Assembly (NCBI GenBank): GCA_937890045.1
Contig: CALBXV010000047.1
Span: 1-9,638 of the forward strand
DNA length: 9,638 nucleotides
Source of the DNA: an uncultured archaeon
GTDB taxonomy: Archaea > Thermoproteota > Nitrososphaeria > Nitrososphaerales > CALBXV01
Direction of reading: 5' to 3'
Below the pieces are notes generated by a model. That model was not told the DNA's origin and ran no database searches. It saw only the letters and a list, made by a program, of their open reading frames with translations. Each line of letters opens with the position of its first letter. Position 1 is the stretch's first letter. The translations under genes were made by a program, and so were the position numbers. Of the stretch, positions 332 through 9,638 are shown piece after piece.

Positions 332-1708
332 TTATTTTGATGTGCAAATAACACCTTCTCTATCGTCAAATGATAATCCATGTACACAAATAAAACCATC
401 ATCTTCCCCAATAAATCTATCAATATTTATTTTTTTATCAGATACTTTAGCATTTATAGCCTTTTTTATATCTTGATTTGGATTACCATAATCGTCCATA
501 ATAAGAATAGGAGAATCTAAATTAGATAAACATCTATCTATATCATATGAAACTAACTGTGAAGTATGTCCTGCATCAACAACTACTACATCAACATCTT
601 TAGGAAAATCCCATTCTAATTTATATACATCTTTTAATAAAAATTCAATATTATTTTTATCTTCACATAATTTTTTTGCTTTATCTATATTTTCTTGAGA
701 ATTATCTACTGCATAAACTTTACCAAAAACTTCACTATATATTTTAGTTCCATCGCCCTGACAACACCCAAGTTCTAATACTTTCATTTCTTTATATTTT
801 TTATCAGAAAAATAATTAAGTATATCTTCTTTAAATTTTCTACTTGTAGTATATTTTGCAACATCTTTATGAAATACTTCATCTAATATATTTTTTGTTT
901 TTTCATTTAAAGACACATAATTATCTTTTACTATATCCCATGTTTGCTTCATACGTGACGATCTTTGTTCTTTTGGTATTCCATTAAAAACCCAGTCATA
1001 GCCGTATTTTATAAAAAATGGTGTTTTGTCTTCATTCAATTGCCAATTATGATTAAACATTTCTTTTCTATTCATATGAGTTAATTTAAATGGAAGAGGC
1101 AAATCTATATTTAAGTCTACGTTATTTATTTGTATCCAATAATTTATAGGCGTCTGCTCTGTTCCTTTTTTAACAATCTCGTCTTGTAATTTTATAAGCA
1201 TATCTGTATTATCATAATATAATTCTTTAAACGATAAGATCAAATCTCTGTGTTTTTTGTTTATAATCATTGGCGATGAATTAACGTATTTTGTAGAATC
1301 AAAATCAAAATCATTAAAAAACTTCTTGTATCCCTGTATACTGTCATATATCCATCTCATATTATCTATATCTCGCATAGCAGAAAGTTTTCCATCTGTA
1401 AAATTAAAAATATTTGGTGCATTCCACTTCATCATGTGCGTGCTATCTATCAAGGCAATTTGATCATAATCTATTCCTAATCTTTCTAATTCATCAAAAA
1501 CAAACATTGTTTTTTGCCAATTAGGTCTAAACCTAATCAAATCTTTTTCTACTGGCTCTGTGAATGGAACAAAAATACAATCATTTTCTTGGCACCAATA
1601 TTCCCATGTTTTTCTTGAATACTCAAAATAGTTATATCCTCCATATTTCTCAACAAAATCTTGTCTTTTATTTACTATTGCAGTCCACCAAACAACATTT
1701 TTACTCAT
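332..1708 (-). CDS. Fusion protein: GT-A-like glycosyltransferase domain plus class I SAM methyltransferase
   Basis: This 458-residue protein has two parts. Residues 1 to about 245 resemble GT-A nucleotide-sugar transferases. The sequence ALIDSTHMMKWNAPNIF at 85-101 occupies the place of the DxD metal motif and its follow-on, and YVNSSPMIINKKH at 141-153 resembles the usual N(S/A)GxMxIN segment. The DxD site reads D-S-T (88-90), so the second acid is missing. Residues about 270-458 form a class I S-adenosylmethionine methyltransferase: motif I LELGCCQGDG at 311-320, the ribose-binding acid D335 (VYAVD), D360, VVVVDAGH at 374-381, and ILIMDDYG at 401-408. The start overlaps the stop of the upstream CMAH-like gene (ATGA), so translation is probably coupled. 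The likely job is adding and/or methylating a sugar (inference). The methyltransferase call is firm; the transferase call is moderate. Confidence 0.8.
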   Translation of the reverse strand: MSKNVVWWTAIVNKRQDFVEKYGGYNYFEYSRKTWEYWCQENDCIFVPFTEPVEKDLIRFRPNWQKTMFVFDELERLGIDYDQIALIDSTHMMKWNAPNIFNFTDGKLSAMRDIDNMRWIYDSIQGYKKFFNDFDFDSTKYVNSSPMIINKKHRDLILSFKELYYDNTDMLIKLQDEIVKKGTEQTPINYWIQINNVDLNIDLPLPFKLTHMNRKEMFNHNWQLNEDKTPFFIKYGYDWVFNGIPKEQRSSRMKQTWDIVKDNYVSLNEKTKNILDEVFHKDVAKYTTSRKFKEDILNYFSDKKYKEMKVLELGCCQGDGTKIYSEVFGKVYAVDNSQENIDKAKKLCEDKNNIEFLLKDVYKLEWDFPKDVDVVVVDAGHTSQLVSYDIDRCLSNLDSPILIMDDYGNPNQDIKKAINAKVSDKKINIDRFIGEDDGFICVHGLSFDDREGVICTSK

Positions 1709-3285
1709 TTTTTTAATTCCACTTTTATTTTTGATTTATTGTTCAAACACTCTCCGCTTTCCAAAGAAAATTTCCAATTATGAATCGGGCAACGAAGATT
1801 CCCATCGCAAACATGCCCTTTAGACAGATCTCCTCTCGAATGTGGACAATATTTTTGAACTAGATATTCTTTTCCCTCATGATTAAGCACAAACATTTCT
1901 TCTTTGCTACTGTCATCTCCAAAATGAAATAATTCGTATTGTTTATACGCAATAGGATCTGCTAGTTTTAAAAAAGCCATAAGATGTTCGCTGTACTCAT
2001 CGGGATCTCGTTTCACTGTAAATCTCAAGCTTAAGAATAAATCTTCCCAAGTTATTTTTTTATCTAACACTTGATTCAAATGTTTTCCTTCAATCGTGAA
2101 CTCATAAAAATAATTGTCTTTATCAAAGTATCTAATTGAATTTCTATTCAATTTATTTCCAAAATCAACTACAATTTTTTCTTCAATTTCACCGAAAATA
2201 TTTAATAAAATTGACCCTCCTATATTATGACAAAGTTGTTTTGCTGAAAACATTAGCGGATAAAAATATTTTATACACTTATCGAGCAAGCTATAATTAA
2301 CATTCTCTATCTCGCTCAGTGTTTTGCCAATGATATCATCTCTTCTTTTTTTGTATTTTACTAAATATTCTCTTTTATTTGTGAAGCATTCTTCTTTTAA
2401 ATTTTCTTCAGTCATTTCTTTGATATCAGCGCCTGTTGGAATCGAATCTCCCGGCATCAGTACTGCAGTTTTTTTAGCAATTTCAGGATGCTCTTCTTCA
2501 AAAAATCTATAAATATCTGCTTGTGTTGGAAACGTATTTTCTTCTAACAAATTCACTTCAAAGACTTCTTCATTCAAAAAACACGGCGGCCCTGCACAAG
2601 GGATATACACTTTTGGATTTAATTTTTTAATTACATCGACAATGACTTTATATTTGAATAATCTTTTGTCTCTACAAAGATTATGCATTTCTTCTTTACT
2701 ATAATCGTACAACAATGGATACCAGCTTGCTCCAGAAAACTGCTTGAATAAATAAGTCACATCGTAATTATCATTTACCCAATCAAGATCCTTATGAGAA
2801 GGTTTCATATCATTAAAATTCATGATTACTTCTTCTCCTGTATCGAAAATCATTGCGCTATCTTCAACTCCCATTGGAACTTGAACTATTGGAGTATATT
2901 TTACGTCTCCTAGCAAAAGTGTATCTTTATGATTGACTTCTATTATCTCGTTATTTAAATTATTTCTGAGATGTTTTATAAACCTCTTGTTATTAAAACT
3001 TGCAGTAACTATTTTTGTTTTTTCATTTAATGTCTTCAAAAAATTGATATCATAATGATCTTGGTGTTCGTGTGACAAGCACACGTAATCCAAGTCTTTC
3101 ACCCACGAAAAATCAATTTCAGTGTTATCTGGAAACTGAAACCAACTTGCCTTAAAAGCCCCGTTTTTGTGAAGCCAGGGATCTGTTACAATCGAAACAT
3201 TGTCTGTTTGTACAAAAATACTTACATGTCCAAAGTATTTAACGATTTTTTCATCTCTTGTTCGCTCATTTTCTGTTCTTTCCAT
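1705..3285 (-). CDS. CMP-N-acetylneuraminate hydroxylase-like protein: metallo-beta-lactamase fold plus C-terminal Rieske domain
   Basis: The 526-residue protein starts with a UlaG-type metallo-beta-lactamase domain (KIVKYFGHVSIFVQ at 13-26; metal motif HEHQDH at 72-77; D159 in NFNDM as a likely further ligand). QFSGASWYP at 182-190 and VYIPCAGPP at 226-234 follow. Residues 410-445 (WEDL, LRF, KRDPDEY) resemble the C-terminal region of animal CMAH as I remember it. The end is a Rieske [2Fe-2S] domain: C480-P-H482, then C499-P-I-H502, with the standard 16-residue gap. CMAH converts CMP-Neu5Ac to CMP-Neu5Gc. Here the true substrate is unknown, and no sialic acid synthesis gene is in view. In animal CMAH the Rieske domain comes first, so the order is reversed. 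The ATG at 3285 has an AGGAG site. The N-terminus MERTENERTRDEK is a charged extension ahead of the usual family start. Sampled stretches have higher GC than neighbouring genes. Confidence 0.85.
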   Translation of the reverse strand: MERTENERTRDEKIVKYFGHVSIFVQTDNVSIVTDPWLHKNGAFKASWFQFPDNTEIDFSWVKDLDYVCLSHEHQDHYDINFLKTLNEKTKIVTASFNNKRFIKHLRNNLNNEIIEVNHKDTLLLGDVKYTPIVQVPMGVEDSAMIFDTGEEVIMNFNDMKPSHKDLDWVNDNYDVTYLFKQFSGASWYPLLYDYSKEEMHNLCRDKRLFKYKVIVDVIKKLNPKVYIPCAGPPCFLNEEVFEVNLLEENTFPTQADIYRFFEEEHPEIAKKTAVLMPGDSIPTGADIKEMTEENLKEECFTNKREYLVKYKKRRDDIIGKTLSEIENVNYSLLDKCIKYFYPLMFSAKQLCHNIGGSILLNIFGEIEEKIVVDFGNKLNRNSIRYFDKDNYFYEFTIEGKHLNQVLDKKITWEDLFLSLRFTVKRDPDEYSEHLMAFLKLADPIAYKQYELFHFGDDSSKEEMFVLNHEGKEYLVQKYCPHSRGDLSKGHVCDGNLRCPIHNWKFSLESGECLNNKSKIKVELKK

Positions 3286-3335
3286 TTTATTCTCCTATTT
3301 TTTAAATCCATTCTCTACTTTTCCAAAGTATTTAA
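3229..3335 (-). repeat. Two direct copies of a 14-nt motif, 93 bp apart
   Basis: TTAAATACTTTGGA (minus strand) occurs at 3229-3242 inside the CMAH-like gene and again at 3322-3335 in the micro-ORF upstream. Flanking bases also partly match (AAAAT before, GTA after). The offset is exactly 31 codons, and both copies are read in the same frame as K-Y-F-G. This suggests a short in-frame duplication, or an old gene start left behind by replacement, rather than chance. The match length is what I read directly; the origin is inference. Confidence 0.6.
3291..3296 (-). promoter_or_regulatory. Shine-Dalgarno site of the CMAH-like gene, overlapping a TAG stop
   Basis: The minus strand reads TAGGAGAATAAAATG. 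AGGAG lies 7 bases before the ATG at 3285, and the TAG of the upstream micro-ORF forms the left part of the same site. The junction at 9191-9196 has the same stop-in-SD layout, which supports this start. Confidence 0.75.
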
Positions 3336-3339
3336 TCAT
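3295..3339 (-). pseudogene. 14-codon micro-ORF, probable remnant of a CMAH/UlaG-type gene start
   Basis: An ATG at 3339 overlaps the TGA of the deacetylase gene (ATGA), as a real coupled start would. It opens the peptide MIKYFGKVENGFKK, followed by TAG. The first residues match the family N-terminus seen in the downstream gene (KIVKYFGHV), and the micro-ORF is in frame with that gene, separated by TAG and three codons. The simplest reading is that this was the original coupled start of the hydroxylase-like gene, or of a lost relative, and that a recombination event moved the working start to 3285. It could instead be a short leader peptide. TAG also ends the genes at 7854 and 9194, so readthrough is unlikely. 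Confidence 0.45.
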
Positions 3340-4073
3340 TTTATAAACTCTTTTGGAAAAGATTTGATTTCATTCATTGCTTTCAACAAATCTTCATGCC
3401 TCTCTTTCACTAGAGTTACGATATTTTTAAGATTATTATATCCAGATTCTGTCCATGAATAGGGATGCATCAGTAATTGAAGCTTTTTTGTCTTTTGATA
3501 ATCATACTCAAGAGGATGCCCATATTTCCACATATGATTTGAATCAGAAACATAATGCACTCTTAATTTTTCAGGTTTCTTGCCATCAAAGAAATGAAAG
3601 AATTTTTTTCCATAGCAATTAATTTTATTATCAAACTCAACATATTGTTTCAAATATTCATGTTTTGGAATATGATAAGAAAACCTATCTATATCAAACT
3701 GATAATAATTTTCAAGTGTTACTATATCTTTCAAAATATATTCTTTTAAATCATCCAATGCCATACCGGTTGGTGGATTGGGGTGTGTTCCTATCTTGTG
3801 TCCAAGAGATTTTATTTCTGTCATCATTTTTATACTTCTATTAGAAATAGCACTGTAAATATCTGACCTCAACTGAATCAAATATGTAGATTTGACTCCA
3901 AGACTATCTGCCTCAAATCTAGCTAAATCTAATGCCCTATCAATTGAATATTCTATATCATGTCGTAACAAACAAAATTTATTTGTATCCACAGTAACTT
4001 CCGAAAAATCAAGAATAGGGAAATTGAGTTTTAACAAATCAATTAAATTTTTATATTCTGCATATGAAAACAT
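3336..4073 (-). CDS. Polysaccharide deacetylase-like protein (NodB/CE4-related fold)
   Basis: The 245-residue protein has the layout of the divergent polysaccharide-deacetylase relatives found in surface-glycan gene clusters. LLRHDIEYSIDRAL at 35-48 corresponds to the first NodB motif, with H38, D39 and E41. KSTYLIQLRSDIY at 61-73 follows. LGHKIGTH at 90-97 gives the two-histidine metal motif (H92, H97). LLMHPYSW at 200-207 resembles the late histidine-containing motif. Classical CE4 enzymes remove N- or O-acetyl groups from sugars using a metal held by Asp-His-His. Here glutamate at 41 replaces the usual second aspartate of the HDxD form, so activity is not certain. There is no signal peptide, so it would act in the cytoplasm, perhaps on a lipid-linked or nucleotide-linked sugar (inference). 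It starts one base after the upstream glycosyltransferase-like gene, with GGAG at 4081-4084, and its stop overlaps the micro-ORF start. Confidence 0.72.
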   Translation of the reverse strand: MFSYAEYKNLIDLLKLNFPILDFSEVTVDTNKFCLLRHDIEYSIDRALDLARFEADSLGVKSTYLIQLRSDIYSAISNRSIKMMTEIKSLGHKIGTHPNPPTGMALDDLKEYILKDIVTLENYYQFDIDRFSYHIPKHEYLKQYVEFDNKINCYGKKFFHFFDGKKPEKLRVHYVSDSNHMWKYGHPLEYDYQKTKKLQLLMHPYSWTESGYNNLKNIVTLVKERHEDLLKAMNEIKSFPKEFIK

Positions 4074-4074
4074 A

Positions 4075-5082
4075 TTAATACTCCAGCCCTTCTATTTGTT
4101 TTCTAACCGAATCAAAACTATATATTTCATGTAATTTTGTCCATGCATATTCTATAGCTTTAAACCGAGCGGCCTCTTCAGTCAAATATTCTACAAAAAG
4201 TTCTTCTAATATTTTTTCATCACAAGTAGCTGTCGTTGGAAATAAAATAGTATGTGATTCATTAAGACCTCCTATATTTATACACCCCACTGATGCAGCT
4301 TGCATACATTGATTGCCAGGATAATAATTTTCTGGATCTAAATTAAAATGAAACGCACATTTACTCCACAATTCTATAAATTCTTTTAATGATAAATAAT
4401 CAAATTTTTGTCCAGACTGTAATGGTTTATATCTTACCTCAATATTATATTTTTTTCCAATATATTCTGCAAAAGCATATGTTCTACCTCGTCTATGTAC
4501 TGGGTTTGGTACATATGCATAAATACAACTATCTTTATACCCTGAATAAAAATTATCATACAAATAATCGGTATTTACTGGTTGTCCTATAAAATTAAAC
4601 TTTTTATTAACATTTTCTTTTAACTGAGTAAAAACATCTAATCGTTTAAATGTTGATATTCCTGAAGTTATTACAGCATCACATTCGTTTAAGAATTTAA
4701 TACGATTCAAATGTCTTGGATGATTATAATTATTGGATGTTCCTACCCAAACTTCTTTTATCCAACCAAAAATTTTTGCTTTTGGATACTTATCTCTTAA
4801 TCTATCAACACAAAATTTATCATAATTTTTATCGTCAAGTCCTATCTTACCATTATCATAAAATATTAAATCAAAATCTACATCTGGTAATTCATCTAAC
4901 TCTGCCCAATTAAAAAAGTAACCTTCTTCAAAAATAAACGGTAAATTTTGCATCGCTGAAAAACATTCTGGAGACACCGCGTGATGATAAACATATGGAT
5001 TATCATTAAAATCATACGCTACTTTATCCTTAATATAATAAGAATTGATAGCACAATCATCCATCATTAAAGCAAATTTCAT
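4075..5082 (-). CDS. Divergent GT-B-type glycosyltransferase-like protein
   Basis: The 335-residue protein has no signal peptide or membrane segment. Its ending is glycosyltransferase-like: FHFNLDPENYYPGNQCMQAA at 244-263 and SVGCINIGGL at 264-273 occupy the place where GT-B enzymes choose and expose the nucleotide-sugar site (an acidic or polar residue, then a small-residue turn, then a hydrophobic strand). Earlier, DAVITSGISTFKRLD at 135-149 and FNFIGQPVNTDYLY at 162-175 fit the end of the N-terminal Rossmann domain and the linker (compare V-P-x-G-x-D in GT4). HRRGRTYAFAEYIG at 196-209 would open the second domain. No clean E-x7-E motif is present, so the family is uncertain. It is translationally coupled to the gene before it (ATGA), with GGAGG at 5087-5091. 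A sugar-transfer role on the same glycan as its neighbours is an inference. Confidence 0.55.
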   Translation of the reverse strand: MKFALMMDDCAINSYYIKDKVAYDFNDNPYVYHHAVSPECFSAMQNLPFIFEEGYFFNWAELDELPDVDFDLIFYDNGKIGLDDKNYDKFCVDRLRDKYPKAKIFGWIKEVWVGTSNNYNHPRHLNRIKFLNECDAVITSGISTFKRLDVFTQLKENVNKKFNFIGQPVNTDYLYDNFYSGYKDSCIYAYVPNPVHRRGRTYAFAEYIGKKYNIEVRYKPLQSGQKFDYLSLKEFIELWSKCAFHFNLDPENYYPGNQCMQAASVGCINIGGLNESHTILFPTTATCDEKILEELFVEYLTEEAARFKAIEYAWTKLHEIYSFDSVRKQIEGLEY

Positions 5083-6104
5083 TCGGCCTCCACCCCTTCC
5101 AACTCAGAAAACAAAGAGTAATAATACATACACAGATTTTCATAAGTATATTTTTCCTTAAACATACTTCTAATATTTGTTAATATTTTCTCATTTAATT
5201 CATCAAAATTAGTTAATATATAATCAATCTTCTCTTCTAAATCTGACCAATCATATTTGCATGGTATATAAGTTACATCATCAAACATAATATTTGGTAT
5301 GGAATCTACTTTAGACTGACTTGGTTTTAAAATAATTGTTCCAAATTGTATTGCCTCAAAATCTCTAAAACACAATTCACCCATACCAAATGGTGATAAA
5401 CATATCTTTGAATTCCACAAATTTCTAACATATTCTTGAAATGGCATCCTCTCAGTTAACATATTATACTTATTTTTAAGTGGTTCTAAATTTTCCCATA
5501 ACCCCCTTCTATGTTCTGTATAATATACATCATTTCTAACTTTATGATCTTCACAGTACGGATGTTCTGCTTTAAAAATAGCACAAACATCAACAGTTTT
5601 ATTTGAATTGATTTGCTGAAAATCTTTATAATGTGGTAGTAAATAACCTAAATTAAATCCCGTAAATTTAATTCTATCCCATACATTTTCTGGTATATCG
5701 TATGATAAATCTAAATCACTTCCAGTTCCAAAAAAATATTTATTAAATGCATATGGTTTGAGATATTCTTCCCGAGTAAACAACTTTTGATTTTTTAACA
5801 GATATATAGCTTTACTTTGAATAAATACTTCATACGCTCCCATTAAAGAAGTTGAATCTGATCCATCAAATAAAAAATAATCTCCAGATATTTTTGAGAG
5901 ATTTTCTAAACCCATTTCCACACTCTCTTCTAATGATTTCTGCTTATCAATAAACTCATTCATACCAACAAACATATAATCAAAATCATCTGAATCTGTT
6001 ATATCAATACTGTAATCTCTTAACTTATCTTTAACAAAAAACAATGGCCTAAACGTTGGTTCATTTCTATCTTCAATTGGATTAGGTATTTTTACTTTTA
6101 TCAT
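5079..6104 (-). CDS. Glycosyltransferase-like protein with exostosin/GT-B-type C-terminal segment
   Basis: The 341-residue soluble protein is recognised mainly from its C-terminal third. YVRNLWNSKICLSPFGMGE at 225-243, then CFRDFEAIQFGTIILKP at 245-261, match the pattern of glycosyltransferase family 1-like and exostosin-type domains (hydrophobic strand, S-P-x-G, R/D-x-x-E-A, x-x-G-x-x-x-x). The downstream IPCKYDWSDLEEKIDYIL (280-297) and MFKEKYTYENLCMYY (314-328) fit the usual closing helices. The N-terminal part (FDYMFVGMNEFIDK at 41-54) has no clear motif. Its stop overlaps the next gene's start (ATGA, 5079-5082), and its own start overlaps the stop of the GT2 gene (6101-6104), so three transferase-type genes are coupled in a row. 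The donor and acceptor cannot be read from the sequence. A host-derived or phage-derived surface sugar pathway is likely. Confidence 0.6.
   Translation of the reverse strand: MIKVKIPNPIEDRNEPTFRPLFFVKDKLRDYSIDITDSDDFDYMFVGMNEFIDKQKSLEESVEMGLENLSKISGDYFLFDGSDSTSLMGAYEVFIQSKAIYLLKNQKLFTREEYLKPYAFNKYFFGTGSDLDLSYDIPENVWDRIKFTGFNLGYLLPHYKDFQQINSNKTVDVCAIFKAEHPYCEDHKVRNDVYYTEHRRGLWENLEPLKNKYNMLTERMPFQEYVRNLWNSKICLSPFGMGELCFRDFEAIQFGTIILKPSQSKVDSIPNIMFDDVTYIPCKYDWSDLEEKIDYILTNFDELNEKILTNIRSMFKEKYTYENLCMYYYSLFSELEGVEAE
5087..5091 (-). promoter_or_regulatory. Shine-Dalgarno GGAGG for the 4075-5082 gene
   Basis: The minus strand reads GTGGAGGCCGAATG, inside the last codons of the upstream gene. It supports the ATG at 5082, whose ATG overlaps the upstream TGA. 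Confidence 0.65.
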
Positions 6105-6733
6105 CTTTTAATTGTTGAATATAAACTATTTTGTTTTTCTTGTTTATCTATTGCCTTAGGATGATATAAACTAAATTCTTCGTATGGTGGAAGATGTGAA
6201 TATGTATCGGCTCCTGTTATAACTTCGTGTACTGGTTTTATCCATTTTATCTTTTCATTATTTCTAAAAACTCTTGCCTGATAATCTGGATAATTTACCC
6301 ACCCATTTTCTGTAACTCTCCATCCCCATTTTCTAATATGCTCTTCAGTAAGACCTTCTACTGTATTTACTCTTGGTATCCAAACTAAATCAATATCATT
6401 TGCTTCTAATATCTCTTTTATTTGAGATAGTAATTGTTCGTGTGGATATTCGTCTGCATCAATATGAAAAATATAATCACCACTACACTTTGATTTACTA
6501 TAATTTTTTAATTTCGAAAAATCACCTTCAAATTTATGTTGATGTACATTTATTACTTTGGCATGAGCGTATTGTTGAGTCCAACTTGTAATAACCTCGT
6601 GTGTTTCCTCATTTGAATAGTCATCACAAATAACTATTTCATCTTCTACGTCTGTCTTATGAATTAAAACGTCTAATAACTTATTAAGTTCATCAACTTC
6701 ATTATGAACTGTAATCGCGTAGGAAATCTTCAA
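6101..6733 (-). CDS. Family 2 glycosyltransferase (GT-A), TTG start
   Basis: The 210-residue protein opens with KISYAITVHNEVDELNKLL (2-20), the nucleotide-binding strand and loop of GT2 enzymes. EIVICDDYSNEETHEV follows at 32-47 (D37, D38). The metal motif is D92-A-D94 in FHIDADEYP (89-97). Later W164 and the H169-E170 pair (IKPVHE), and LYHPKA at 189-194, fit the acceptor-site region of phage and bacterial lipopolysaccharide-type GT2 proteins. At 210 residues it is short for the family, but it ends with the typical HPK...Q...Y tail, so it looks complete. The start codon is TTG at 6733, not ATG. It is supported by an AGAGG site 6 bases upstream and by the conserved N-terminus starting exactly there. 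It overlaps the upstream gene by 32 bp in another frame. The sugar is not predictable. Confidence 0.88.
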   Translation of the reverse strand: MKISYAITVHNEVDELNKLLDVLIHKTDVEDEIVICDDYSNEETHEVITSWTQQYAHAKVINVHQHKFEGDFSKLKNYSKSKCSGDYIFHIDADEYPHEQLLSQIKEILEANDIDLVWIPRVNTVEGLTEEHIRKWGWRVTENGWVNYPDYQARVFRNNEKIKWIKPVHEVITGADTYSHLPPYEEFSLYHPKAIDKQEKQNSLYSTIKR

Positions 6734-7187
6734 TTAAAACCTCTTTAAATTCTTTTGGTAAAACGATTGGCTCTAAAAATACTTGTGATTTTCTAGCCTC
6801 TTTATAATCATACGTTCTATAAACTAAAAATTTATTTAAATATCTTTTTATCTTTTTATAAATCGCCGGTCTTGCTCCTCTTACACCAACACCTTTTATA
6901 TTTACTCTATAAATATCATTATCTATATCTATAATTTTTACTTCACCTATTCGTTCTAAGATTTGAACAAGTATTGGTTTATTTCTAATAGTAGGTACAA
7001 TTCCTCTACTTTCTAATTTTAAACCAATTAAATGAAATGTTTTAGTAGTATCTTTTCTTTTATAAGGCATTCTTGGATTCAATACAAGTAATGTAGTCAA
7101 ATACCCTGCTGTGCCTTTTCCCGTATATCGGAAAGATATAATATCACCAGGTTTTACTTTACCCCAAGTATATACTTGTTTAGGCAT
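6702..7187 (-). CDS. Small phage-type protein of unknown function
   Basis: The 161-residue basic protein is rich in predicted beta strands. It starts with a VKPGDIISFRYTGKG segment (11-25) and a hydrophobic strand, LTTLLVLNPRMP (30-41). These are followed by FHLIGLKLE (51-59) and a lysine/arginine-rich stretch (VRGARPAIYKKIKRYLNKF at 102-120). The pattern of a GD-ISFxY opening, an L-V-LNPR strand and an H-GL-L strand recalls uncharacterised proteins next to structural genes in T4-like marine phages. That is my recollection, not a search result. No catalytic motif or membrane segment is seen. The start ATG overlaps the stop of the zinc-ribbon gene by 8 bp and has no clear ribosome site, so it is probably made by translational coupling. 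The pair 6702-7187 and 7180-7629 probably works together. Confidence 0.75.
   Translation of the reverse strand: MPKQVYTWGKVKPGDIISFRYTGKGTAGYLTTLLVLNPRMPYKRKDTTKTFHLIGLKLESRGIVPTIRNKPILVQILERIGEVKIIDIDNDIYRVNIKGVGVRGARPAIYKKIKRYLNKFLVYRTYDYKEARKSQVFLEPIVLPKEFKEVLIEDFLRDYSS
6740..6746 (-). promoter_or_regulatory. Shine-Dalgarno site that decides the TTG start of the GT2 gene
   Basis: The minus strand reads AAAGAGGTTTTAATTGAAG. The AAAGAGG lies 6 bases before TTG at 6733 and inside the coding sequence of the upstream gene. No ATG in frame gives the full GT2 N-terminus, so this site decides the start. Confidence 0.75.
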
Positions 7188-7629
7188 CTGGTTTAATGTC
7201 TCTAGTTATTCCCATTTTTTTACAGGCCTCAATGAATTCATATTGTCCAAACTTTTTTGCATTTTCAACATCAAGTCTCTGACTATAATTATCATATTTA
7301 GACTGTTCTTCTTCGGGAATGTCTATTACTTTAGCATATCTCCAACCCCAATTTTTCTTTGTCCCCTCTGGGAAAATTATTCCCAAAGTTCCCATATTAA
7401 TTACTGCTGGAAACCAAGTTATGTTTCTCTTTTTATCCAAAAATTTTAAATCCTGCACAAGTTTTGGTGAACTTTTAAGATTTTCAATCAATCTTAAACT
7501 CTCCGTTTCATACCGTGAATCACTCATAAATCCACACTTAAAACACAAAAATGAACTAAACTCTTTTTGTATTTCTTCAAAACAATGATCCACATCAAAA
7601 CAAACAGGACAATCTATTACTCTTTCCAT
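7180..7629 (-). CDS. Small zinc-ribbon protein, phage-type, unknown function
   Basis: The 149-residue protein carries a four-cysteine zinc ribbon at its N-terminus: C7-P-V-C10 and C29-F-K-C32. A conserved-looking core follows: ITWFPAVINMGTLGIIFPEG at 70-89, then WGWRYAKVIDIPEEEQSKY at 94-112 and FGQYEFIEACKKMGI at 127-141. The order F-P-x-x-I-N, G-x-x-F-P-x-G, W-x-W, I-P-E-E-E and a closing F-x-E-A helix resembles uncharacterised proteins of marine T4-like phages (recollection, not a search). Such small ribbons may bind nucleic acid or protein, but no function can be assigned. The start at 7629 has an AAGGAT site at 7635-7640, which also covers the last codon and stop of the upstream EF-hand gene. 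It overlaps the next gene by 8 bp. Confidence 0.78.
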   Translation of the reverse strand: MERVIDCPVCFDVDHCFEEIQKEFSSFLCFKCGFMSDSRYETESLRLIENLKSSPKLVQDLKFLDKKRNITWFPAVINMGTLGIIFPEGTKKNWGWRYAKVIDIPEEEQSKYDNYSQRLDVENAKKFGQYEFIEACKKMGITRDIKPDA

Positions 7630-7638
7630 ATCTAATCC

Positions 7639-7851
7639 TTATTTCAGTATAGCCTGTAGCGCCATAGCACCACCTACTATTGTACCATAAAATAATATAA
7701 GTACTATTACAGCTGACAAAGCTTCCCACCAGTCAACTTTTTTATTTCTATTTATATCTGGTATTGGAAAGAATATTTCATACCAATCTATTCTTTTATT
7801 CCTATTCCAATCAAAAATAGATATTAACTTTTTCTTTAATGATTCTTTCAT
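7639..7851 (-). CDS. 70-residue membrane protein with two EF-hand-type calcium loops
   Basis: Two 12-residue loops match the EF-hand consensus at every ligand position. Residues 14-25 are D-W-N-R-N-K-R-I-D-W-Y-E, and residues 32-43 are D-I-N-R-N-K-K-V-D-W-W-E (D1, N3, N5, I/V8, D9, E12). They lie 18 residues apart, much closer than the loops of a normal paired EF-hand and with no room for full flanking helices, so they look like a tandem repeat of about 54 bp. A hydrophobic segment at about 46-67 (VIVLILFYGTIVGGAMALQA) is a single membrane helix, and the N-terminus (MKESLKKK) is basic. There is no signal peptide, so the loops would face the cytoplasm or the inner side of a virion membrane contact. 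Known small phage membrane proteins include holins and spanins, but nothing here proves either. The ATG at 7851 follows the glycosyltransferase stop by two bases. Confidence 0.82.
   Translation of the reverse strand: MKESLKKKLISIFDWNRNKRIDWYEIFFPIPDINRNKKVDWWEALSAVIVLILFYGTIVGGAMALQAILK
7723..7812 (-). repeat. Tandem 54-bp coding repeat encoding the two EF-hand loops
   Basis: The two loop units (7777-7812 and 7723-7758) encode D-x-N-R-N-K-(R/K)-(I/V)-D-W-(Y/W)-E, identical at 8 of 12 positions with mostly conservative differences. The period is 18 codons. It is seen directly as repeated amino-acid pattern. At DNA level the copies have diverged, so the duplication is not recent. Confidence 0.65.
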
Positions 7852-7853
7852 AA

Positions 7854-9185
7854 CTACACTCTTTTTAATTTTGGTAATTTGATTTTGGGTGCCTTGTTTT
7901 CATTAGTTTTTTTAAGTTTTGGTAAATTCAACTCAACCTCTTTTGGAAATTCAGGAACATTATCGTCAAGAATTTTACCAAATTTTTTAGTCATTGTATC
8001 TAAAGAAAACTTACCTTTATTAACTATTCCTAATTTTTTTGCACTTAAAGTATATTTTTTATAATTAACGTACACATCTTTAATTGTATTGGAGGCTTCC
8101 ATATAATTTGCAGTAAACCATTCGGCCCCATCAACCCAAATATTTTCTTGAAAAGAATCCTTTTCAACTCTACTCATACTACCACCAAGTAAAATAGCTT
8201 GATCTGGATGTAAAAAATCGCAATGTCCACTCCATCCTGGTGCTATTACAGGTTTCTCTGAAATCGTTGCCTCAAGTAATGGCCTACCAAATCCCTCTCC
8301 GTGAGTTAATGTTACGTGTGCTTTAACTTTAGGATGATTATATAATTCATTCATTTCTATATCAGTAAAATCTCCATGTAACAAATAAATACTTGGTAAA
8401 TCTCCTTTTACAGAATTTTTAATATGTTGTATTTTTTCTAAAATATCTTCTCTATCTAACACAGAAAGTGTAGCACCACTTGTTTTCATAACTAATGCTG
8501 GTTTTACTGGTTTATTTTTAAATGTTTCAAGAAAAACTTTTATTAACATACCAGTATCTTTTCTATCTACTCCCAAACCACCTTGTAGCCAATGTCCAAC
8601 ATACAAAAAACAAAACTTCTCCTCTATTTTTTCAAACTCATCTACCAATTCTTTTGAAAATTCTTTTGTTTTTTTGAATATAGTCGAATCAACTCCTTCA
8701 AAAAGAACTTCAATTGGTTTTTCAACAGATAATTCTCCTATTTTTTCTTGTGTTTGATCATTTAAAGAATCAAACTTTGTTGATAACATAACTTCTTTTA
8801 CAAAATTAGAAGGAACAATATTTAAATCCATTCTATTCATGCCTTGTATCCAATCTGATGGACATACTGTTGTTTCTACTCCAGCAGTAATACCTATATT
8901 ATATTTACCCACAGTACTGAATTCATTAGGAATTACGATATGAATATGAACCTCTGGTTGTTTTGGTAAATCTGGGGCATCCAATAATCTATCCACTATT
9001 GGTTTATCATTCTCATCATTTGGATCTAATGCATTCATTGGTGTGTTGCCCCAACGAACTGGCCAAATTTTTACATCAAATCTATCAAGCTTAATAAGCG
9101 ACCTACAAATATCTCTACTATGAGATCCATATCCGCTCCTTGTTGCAACAGGTGCTGTAACTAAACATAAAGGTTTATCACTCAT
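7854..9185 (-). CDS. GT-B glycosyltransferase (GT4-like) with lysine-rich C-terminal tail
   Basis: The 443-residue protein has the two-domain GT-B layout. The N-terminal half opens with LCLVTAPVATRSGYGSHSRD (6-25), whose GYG loop fits acceptor/donor binding. NIVPSNFVKEVML at 122-134 and IEVLFEGVDSTIF at 158-170 (compare V-x-x-G-V-D) end the first domain. In the second domain KFCFLYVGHW (190-199) starts the donor half, and HGEGFGRPLLEA at 295-306 holds the retaining-enzyme E-x7-E pair (E297, E305). KPVIAPGWSGHCDFL at 311-325 follows as the usual small-residue turn. After about residue 415 the sequence turns into a basic tail with two LPKLK copies (421-425 and 438-442). The ATG at 9185 has a TAGGAG site that overlaps the previous gene's stop. 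The gene ends in TAG. The donor sugar is unknown. Confidence 0.9.
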   Translation of the reverse strand: MSDKPLCLVTAPVATRSGYGSHSRDICRSLIKLDRFDVKIWPVRWGNTPMNALDPNDENDKPIVDRLLDAPDLPKQPEVHIHIVIPNEFSTVGKYNIGITAGVETTVCPSDWIQGMNRMDLNIVPSNFVKEVMLSTKFDSLNDQTQEKIGELSVEKPIEVLFEGVDSTIFKKTKEFSKELVDEFEKIEEKFCFLYVGHWLQGGLGVDRKDTGMLIKVFLETFKNKPVKPALVMKTSGATLSVLDREDILEKIQHIKNSVKGDLPSIYLLHGDFTDIEMNELYNHPKVKAHVTLTHGEGFGRPLLEATISEKPVIAPGWSGHCDFLHPDQAILLGGSMSRVEKDSFQENIWVDGAEWFTANYMEASNTIKDVYVNYKKYTLSAKKLGIVNKGKFSLDTMTKKFGKILDDNVPEFPKEVELNLPKLKKTNENKAPKIKLPKLKRV

Positions 9186-9190
9186 ATTTT

Positions 9191-9196
9191 CTCCTA
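9191..9196 (-). promoter_or_regulatory. Shine-Dalgarno site of the GT4-like gene, overlapping the upstream TAG stop
   Basis: The minus strand reads ACTTAGGAGAAAATATG. The TAG stop of the preceding glycosyltransferase is built into the AGGAG site, which lies about 6 bases from the ATG at 9185. It confirms both the stop and the start. Confidence 0.75.
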
Positions 9197-9638
9197 AGTT
9201 TTATACATTGTATAACGTTTTCTTGGTTTCCACATTTCAAATCCTTTATCCATCTGATCAATAAAATTTTGAGACATTTTTTTAGCAGTCATCATTGATA
9301 TATCACTGCAAACAAACTCATATCCCGCCATTCCACACTCATTTCTTTTTTCCACATCCATATCATACCAATATCTTATAGCATCTGCTGCATCCTCATA
9401 ATCACATCTATCATCGAAAATATATGGTGTTGGTATTGAACCTACCAATGATCTATTTGATGGCCAAACTGGATATACCCATTCACCCCAAGTTAAATCC
9501 TCATTATTTTTCCATTTTTTATGGTCATGTAATGACTGTATTTCACTATAATCATTTTCATCTAAATGTTTTCCTTTATACTTAAACCCACATTGGTCTT
9601 GTAATCCACCAGTAACATTTACTATAATAGGTGTCCCT
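9194..9638 (-). CDS. Glycosyltransferase, C-terminal part (cut by window edge)
   Basis: The reading frame is open from the right edge of the window to a TAG at 9194, giving the last 147 residues. They begin GTPIIVNVTGGLQDQCGF, which matches the donor-binding segment of GT4-type enzymes (A/L-G-x-P-I-x-V-x-x-x-G-G-L-x-D-x). The sequence passes through a tryptophan-rich insert (WGEWVYPVWPSNRSLVGSIP at about 50-69) before the closing helices (DYEDAADAIRYWYD, then DVEKRNECGMAGYEFV). A TTG at 9448 could be mistaken for a start, but coding with clear family similarity continues upstream of it, so it is internal. The N-terminal half and the E-x7-E region lie outside the window. The gene is immediately followed by a second GT-B gene. 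Their roles may be successive sugar additions (inference). Confidence 0.85.
   Translation of the reverse strand, partial: GTPIIVNVTGGLQDQCGFKYKGKHLDENDYSEIQSLHDHKKWKNNEDLTWGEWVYPVWPSNRSLVGSIPTPYIFDDRCDYEDAADAIRYWYDMDVEKRNECGMAGYEFVCSDISMMTAKKMSQNFIDQMDKGFEMWKPRKRYTMYKT

Follow-up and report, generated by a model that had tools for sequence, protein, structure and literature searches.

A 9,638-nucleotide stretch of contig CALBXV010000047.1 from an uncultured archaeon assembly (hereafter the window) carries a cassette of glycan genes, one of which encodes a protein of the NamH family, composed of a metallo-beta-lactamase (MBL) domain, an SCP2_Rv3818 domain and a Rieske domain (hereafter the hydroxylase). 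Sequence comparisons support an origin of the cassette in a marine-type phage, and in a near-identical phage contig the gene is replaced by others. We consider that this phage-borne protein probably converts N-acetyl to N-glycolyl on an activated amino sugar by hydroxylation, as one of several alternatives that occupy the same slot. What is new here is the phage context and the exchangeable slot with its predicted N-acyl-editing genes, and not the domain order of the protein.

The open reading frame (ORF) is evidently a real gene and not a chance frame, judging from 273 homologues found by protein search at E ≤ 1e-3 (the window's own protein included) and from the ratio of nonsynonymous to synonymous substitution rates (dN/dS), which is about 0.18 against the hydroxylase of contig L006 (dS 1.6) and about 0.12 against that of L002 (dS 3.1), with dS near saturation. 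Among the matches listed, the closest homologues after the window's own protein are 76%, 68% and 62% identical. Pfam recognizes Lactamase_B_3 (PF13483, residues 15-99, 37.4 bits, cut-off 24), SCP2_Rv3818 (PF25451, 52.8 bits, cut-off 28.2) and Rieske (PF00355, 44.7 bits, cut-off 20.3), and the MBL fold and complete Rieske cluster described in a first-pass annotation of the window are both supported by these matches. The ORF and the motifs that it named are present and mostly conserved among relatives. HEHQDH occupies residues 72-77 (window 3055-3072), and CPH...CPIH occupies residues 480-502 (window 1780-1848). In an alignment of 35 sequences, window included, H72, H74, D76, H77, D142 and D159 are invariant, as are the Rieske residues C480, H482, C499 and H502. 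Over 22 aligned relatives, Q182, S184, G185, W188 and P190 of QFSGASWYP are invariant; in RDPDEY, which falls within the SCP2_Rv3818 domain, R426 is invariant and P428, D429 and Y431 are nearly so.

The first-pass annotation had regarded the protein as a CMAH-like enzyme with reversed domain order. Animal CMAH is described as having an N-terminal Rieske domain (PMC8227644), and the window protein does not show this order of Rieske domain followed by MBL domain, its Rieske domain being C-terminal. Pfam describes PF25451 as 'Rv3818-like', and Rv3818 is described as the tuberculosis orthologue of NamH, the muramic acid N-acetyl hydroxylase (PMC10050696). Since the same source places the UlaG domain of NamH at the N-terminus and the Rieske domain at the C-terminus, the domain order of the window protein is that of a known hydroxylase. 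Motif order was counted in the 120 homologues listed among the 273; the MBL motif precedes the Rieske motif in 113 of the 113 that have both, and the other seven, six of which are shorter than 440 amino acids (aa), lack one or both motifs. The MBL-first pattern also appears in 138 of 140 rows of an overlapping set collected for the tree. With this order both published and shared by all 113, a reversed order was rejected as a novelty. By domain content, the window protein is a member of the NamH family, not a rearranged CMAH. It shares with NamH/Rv3818 the N-terminal UlaG-like MBL domain, the SCP2_Rv3818 domain and the C-terminal Rieske domain, whereas NamH is a mycobacterial chromosomal gene for peptidoglycan synthesis and the window gene lies in a phage glycan cassette beside glycosyltransferases. 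With animal CMAH it shares the MBL and Rieske domains, though in the opposite order, and the same proposed N-acetyl to N-glycolyl chemistry (PMC4819959, PMC8227644). Its mode of action is probably like that of both enzymes, while by family it groups with NamH. PF25451 was absent from 14 named control genomes. To our knowledge, NamH is the sole member of this family with a studied role. In two proteins (P0072, P0098) the hydroxylase seemed to be fused to a UDP-sugar dehydrogenase; they were not counted as fusions, since they look like adjacent genes joined by frameshifts.

The AlphaFold2 model of the hydroxylase (35-sequence input) has a predicted local distance difference test score (pLDDT) of 91.5 and a predicted template modelling score (pTM) of 0.89. 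Foldseek against the PDB places FrsH (8a90, E 2.8e-12) and CmlA (4jo0, 5kik, 5kil) at ranks 1-5. FrsH is also first in sequence searches; in the profile search it is followed by the hydrolase NAPE-PLD and, third, by CmlA. In the profile alignment, HxHxDH and D159 line up with CmlA residues at the sequence level. According to PMC7794379, both FrsH and CmlA are non-haem diiron monooxygenases, with amino acids held by peptide synthetases as substrates. Their MBL domain is the best Foldseek match to the window protein, but about 250 residues precede it (aligned from chain residue 247-250), whereas the window MBL domain starts at about residue 11-15 and is accompanied instead by SCP2-like and Rieske domains. 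A diiron reading of the MBL domain is favoured but not proved by these comparisons, and the hydroxylase-type family membership proposed in the first-pass annotation agrees with the Pfam matches to SCP2_Rv3818 and Rieske and with the lead of FrsH and CmlA in Foldseek.

The protein might instead be no hydroxylase, its MBL domain acting as a UlaG- or NAPE-PLD-like hydrolase of a sugar or phosphodiester and its Rieske domain being structural or regulatory. Consistent with this, VIA-align, which spans residues 8-299 only, gave a near tie that does not separate CmlA and FrsH from UlaG-type and other MBL proteins (3bv6 21.4, 2wym (UlaG) 21.1, CmlA 20.9, FrsH 19.5), and NAPE-PLD ranks second in the profile search. 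However, the Rieske ligands are invariant in the 35 sequences, FrsH leads both the sequence searches and Foldseek, and NamH, a member of this family, is a hydroxylase by published description (PMC10050696); we consider the hydrolase unlikely. The label of UlaG lactonase was rejected on the lead of FrsH by sequence and Foldseek and on the two additional domains over cut-off, SCP2-like and Rieske, which distinguish the window protein from UlaG-type lactonases; the MBL fold itself may still be UlaG-like.

The phage origin of the cassette is supported by contig L067, which is 98.8% identical to the window over 3342-9638 and 86.7% identical over 1-1615. Another stretch of the same contig (L068) encodes, by PHROGs, a clamp loader, processivity factor, DNA polymerase, ribonucleotide reductase, helicase, UvsX-like recombinase and single-stranded DNA-binding protein, a T4-like replication module; its DNA polymerase shares 47% identity with the one from Microcystis phage Mel-JY01, the first of 2591 records with a match. 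The phage-like glycan cassette seen in the first-pass annotation is thus borne out. Contigs L054 and L055 are at least 99.9% identical to window 3636-9638. The glycan genes around the hydroxylase include Glycos_transf_2 and Epimerase matches over the Pfam cut-off and a phrog_2170 glycosyltransferase. The hydroxylase itself matched no PHROGs family at E ≤ 0.01 and had no tblastn match in 50,697 phage records. Its window-type relatives are on six IMG/VR contigs (L001-L006), of which L001 and L002 have the same genes where they overlap and L004 is cut at the contig end. A second, distant viral type, 27-30% identical to the window protein, is on three contigs (L007 9992-11533, L008 9986-11521, and L084); the L007 copy lies on a 190-kb contig that also carries a carbamoyltransferase gene. 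The cultured Flavobacterium phage immuto (160 kb, Baltic Sea) has a similar cassette start, namely a PD-(D/E)XK nuclease, two glycosyltransferases, the second of which is 45% identical to window 7854-9185, a small gene and a family-2 glycosyltransferase, followed by amino-sugar genes. It differs in having no annotated hydroxylase, and has two WecE-type transaminases and a pilin glycosylation protein. Among top-ranked open-licence papers, we found no report of viral NamH- or CMAH-type hydroxylases or of glycosylation in phage immuto.

The window and L067 have no blastn match over 1616-3341, which is the hydroxylase gene with its edges. In L067 this slot is filled by three genes: one of 100 aa that looks HAD-like by eye and has no Pfam match, one for an ATP-grasp protein and one for a PIG-L N-deacetylase. 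We defined the slot as the interval of at most 2.5 kb between a CE4-like gene and a following glycosyltransferase-methyltransferase gene on the same strand, ignoring short matches to the latter of no more than 40% identity, which left out L049. Thirteen of 30 examined loci qualified; these contigs are partly close kin, so the counts are not independent events. The slot holds the hydroxylase in two (window, L006), a formyltransferase in five (L036, L039, L040, L043, L053), the HAD-like, ATP-grasp and PIG-L genes in one (L067) and other genes in one (L051), and it is empty in four (L031, L034, L059, L063). In Pfam scans covering three of these five formyltransferases, all three passed the Formyl_trans_C cut-off and one passed that of Formyl_trans_N. 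The one compared further resembles ArnA, which formylates a sugar nucleotide, more closely than methionyl-tRNA formyltransferase, and is below all NCBIfam cut-offs. By family, the slot alternatives are predicted to act on sugar N-acyl groups. Among 28 related cassette contigs, the hydroxylase occurs in two (L005, L006), and in L005 the gene order is hydroxylase, glycosyltransferase-methyltransferase, CE4-like. That near-identical phages differ by this swap suggests selection for variety in one sugar group.

The first-pass annotation found no sialic acid synthesis gene; this holds for the window but not for its relative L005, whose hydroxylase is 61% identical to the window's and whose cassette contains NeuB- and NeuA-type genes. 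The L005 NeuB gene (205.7 bits, cut-off 22.1; about 6 kb downstream of the hydroxylase) has N-acetylneuraminate synthases as its best solved matches, and the best solved match of the NeuA-type gene (about 2 kb downstream) is CMP-N-acetylneuraminate synthetase (E 7.5e-30). Both are below NCBIfam equivalog cut-offs. Because of these neighbours a CMAH-like substrate is possible, and the sugar of L005 may be a CMP-nonulosonate. Cytidylyltransferase genes occur in L002, L005 and L006; none was found in L001, L003 and L004 (4.8-7.6 kb long) or L008, and L007 has a match below cut-off only. In L039, L040 and L043, whose slot holds a formyltransferase, genes for a cytidylyltransferase, a DegT aminotransferase and NeuB come next, and L006 shows the same order up to the aminotransferase, where the contig ends. 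Among the 28 cassette contigs, NeuB is in four (L005, L039, L040, L043) and cytidylyltransferase in seven (the same four and L006, L031, L034). The L067 cassette has a DegT aminotransferase and several short-chain dehydrogenase/reductase (SDR) genes. A conserved protein of about 215-220 aa near NeuB (L005 18272-18934, L040 17057-17719, L009 1791-2432), suspected by eye to be a sialyltransferase, had no Pfam or PDB-sequence support and was dropped.

Cellular homologues were compared at 18 of 20 loci, L023 and L030 being dropped for having no matching ORF above 400 aa. In eight of the 18, the homologue is followed at a distance of 4-888 bp by a LegC-like aminotransferase; L015 and L016 among them are two copies on one contig, and in L018 the aminotransferase is on the opposite strand. 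At L026 this aminotransferase reaches a score of 388.7 (LegC cut-off 420), and the locus also has, 65 bp upstream, an acetyltransferase of the NeuD type (200.4 bits, cut-off 160.8). The neighbour genes point to N-acetylated amino sugars generally, with CMP-nonulosonate as one case. In Nitrosopumilaceae archaea, hydroxylases 44-45% identical to the window's (L011 443-1972, L012 2421-3956) adjoin membrane-type family-2 glycosyltransferase-like genes, the neighbours being assigned by eye.

These neighbours also bear on whether the phage protein has the function of NamH proper, hydroxylating host UDP-N-acetylmuramic acid (UDP-MurNAc) during infection so that N-glycolyl peptidoglycan resists lysozyme-like enzymes of the host or of rival phages. 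The family and domain order are those of NamH, and several database names among the matches listed read 'UDP-MurNAc hydroxylase'. Against this, the hydroxylase is set among glycosyltransferases with an SDR gene downstream, sugar-editing genes take its place in L067 and other phages, LegC-like aminotransferases adjoin the cellular homologues in the eight loci above, and actinomycete homologues are distant from the window protein in the tree. We regard this function as improbable.

In a 92-row tree, in which a minority of rows have a known origin and long branches make the deep joins unsure, the window protein falls with those of L002, L005 and L006 in a 20-row set with Shimodaira-Hasegawa-like approximate likelihood ratio test (SH-aLRT) support of 100. 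This set is nested in a 57-row set that includes Nitrosopumilaceae proteins. L007 and L008 are placed elsewhere, with L024 and five actinomycete homologues (support 91). That the viral proteins form two groups suggests at least two acquisitions. L009 retains a hydroxylase remnant at about 9990-10270, with N- and C-terminal pieces and a missing middle, which directly precedes a homologue of the window 332-1708 gene and has a NeuB gene about 9 kb upstream; L010 matches the same place. The rarity of the gene (two of the 28 contigs) and this internally deleted remnant would fit a useless passenger picked up by chance in a variable cassette and now being lost, but the ORFs are intact, dN/dS is low between phage copies as given above, and four viral lineages fall within the one 20-row set, which makes a passenger very unlikely.

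The hydroxylation of an activated amino sugar, which we prefer, would proceed as follows. The MBL domain most likely houses a non-haem diiron centre that activates O2, and the C-terminal Rieske cluster would relay electrons from a host reductase. The methyl of the N-acetyl group on a nucleotide-linked amino sugar would be hydroxylated, giving N-glycolyl, and the phage cassette would make and transfer this amino sugar during infection, decorating either the virion or the host surface. With the slot between the CE4-like and glycosyltransferase-methyltransferase genes filled otherwise or empty in related phages, the hydroxylation would be one of several alternative decorations. Several observations weigh against this proposal, in addition to the VIA-align near tie and the rank of NAPE-PLD. 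PF25451 reaches its cut-off in only six of eight genomes with cellular homologues. L067, nearest to the window, has no NeuB or cytidylyltransferase match on a contig that is a fragment. The slot genes are not strictly alternative: the cassettes of L033, L042 and L059 have PIG-L-like genes at other places, those of L041 and L052 have formyltransferase-like genes at other places, and the contig of L040 combines a formyltransferase in its slot with a PIG-L gene outside it. The hydroxylase of L002 has a different cassette position, ahead of the glycosyltransferases. A broader scenario, which we hold only tentatively and think doubtful as a whole, is that large marine phages maintain an exchangeable N-acyl-editing slot (hydroxylase, formyltransferase, or ATP-grasp with PIG-L deacetylase) that rewrites one amino substituent of a phage-specified sugar, in some lineages a CMP-nonulosonate; the virus would thus make N-glycolyl nonulosonic acids, and near-identical phages would differ in that group.

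The named genes of the window are all on the minus strand (Table 1). The glycosyltransferase-like part of the 332-1708 protein has a paralogue in L067, 32% identical, that matches GT8 at 25.3 bits (cut-off 24.3), and second copies of this part in related phages match family GT8. The N-terminal part is a separate protein in L009 (271 aa) and in L048 (263 aa), indicating that the methyltransferase part is separable. The model of the CE4-like protein has a pLDDT of 75.0, and seven of seven Foldseek hits at E ≤ 1e-3 are CE4-type with TM-scores of 0.39-0.45. Two short genes (window 6702-7187 and 7180-7629) have no Pfam match over cut-off and are kept in L036, L039, L040 and L053, among others. On the phage contigs, the gene at L068 7343-8335, set between those for DNA polymerase and ribonucleotide reductase, encodes a member of the glutamine synthetase family (Gln-synt_C and Gln-synt_N both over cut-off), and L069 9003-9998 has a gene similar to it by eye. 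The product of L069 9995-11251 is a trypsin-like protease that also has a dockerin domain, each match being over cut-off.

Table 1 Features of the cassette in the window.
Feature	Position	Strand	Basis or remark
NAD-dependent sugar epimerase/dehydratase (SDR), cut at window edge	2-265	minus	PF01370 49.6 bits, cut-off 20.9; 309 aa in L067
Two-part protein, N-terminal glycosyltransferase-like and C-terminal methyltransferase	332-1708	minus	Methyltransf_25 38.4 bits
Exchangeable slot	1616-3341		No blastn match to near-identical contig L067
NamH-type MBL/SCP2_Rv3818/Rieske protein, predicted N-acetyl hydroxylase	1705-3285	minus	ATG start, 526 aa
Rieske [2Fe-2S] domain	1732-1905	minus	Residues 461-518, PF00355
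SCP2_Rv3818 domain	1963-2283	minus	Residues 335-441, PF25451
MBL-fold domain	2434-3243	minus	Residues ~15-284; Pfam Lactamase_B_3 and VIA-align span of model residues 8-299
CE4-like (polysaccharide deacetylase fold) protein, upstream neighbour of the slot	3336-4073	minus	Foldseek; no Pfam match over cut-off
Conserved cassette protein, probable glycosyltransferase	4075-5082	minus	By eye, no Pfam match; homologues in L005, L006
Glycosyltransferase-like	5079-6104	minus	RXYLT1_C below cut-off; 63% identical in L002, L006
Family-2 glycosyltransferase	6101-6733	minus	Glycos_transf_2 58.1 bits, cut-off 23.3
Glycosyltransferase, phage family phrog_2170	7854-9185	minus	63.8 bits; 45% identical in Flavobacterium phage immuto
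Glycosyltransferase, cut at window edge	9194-9637	minus	463 aa in L054

The phage version, beside amino-sugar genes, is a second setting for the NamH family. The single-gene swap suggests that surface sugars are diversified via one acyl group, which could bear on phage-host recognition. A passage of a 2018 review states that N-glycolylneuraminic acid (Neu5Gc) on microbes had been shown by no study and that microbial CMAH-like genes were untested (PMC6288428). The L005 enzyme, with its NeuA- and NeuB-type neighbours, allows a direct test.

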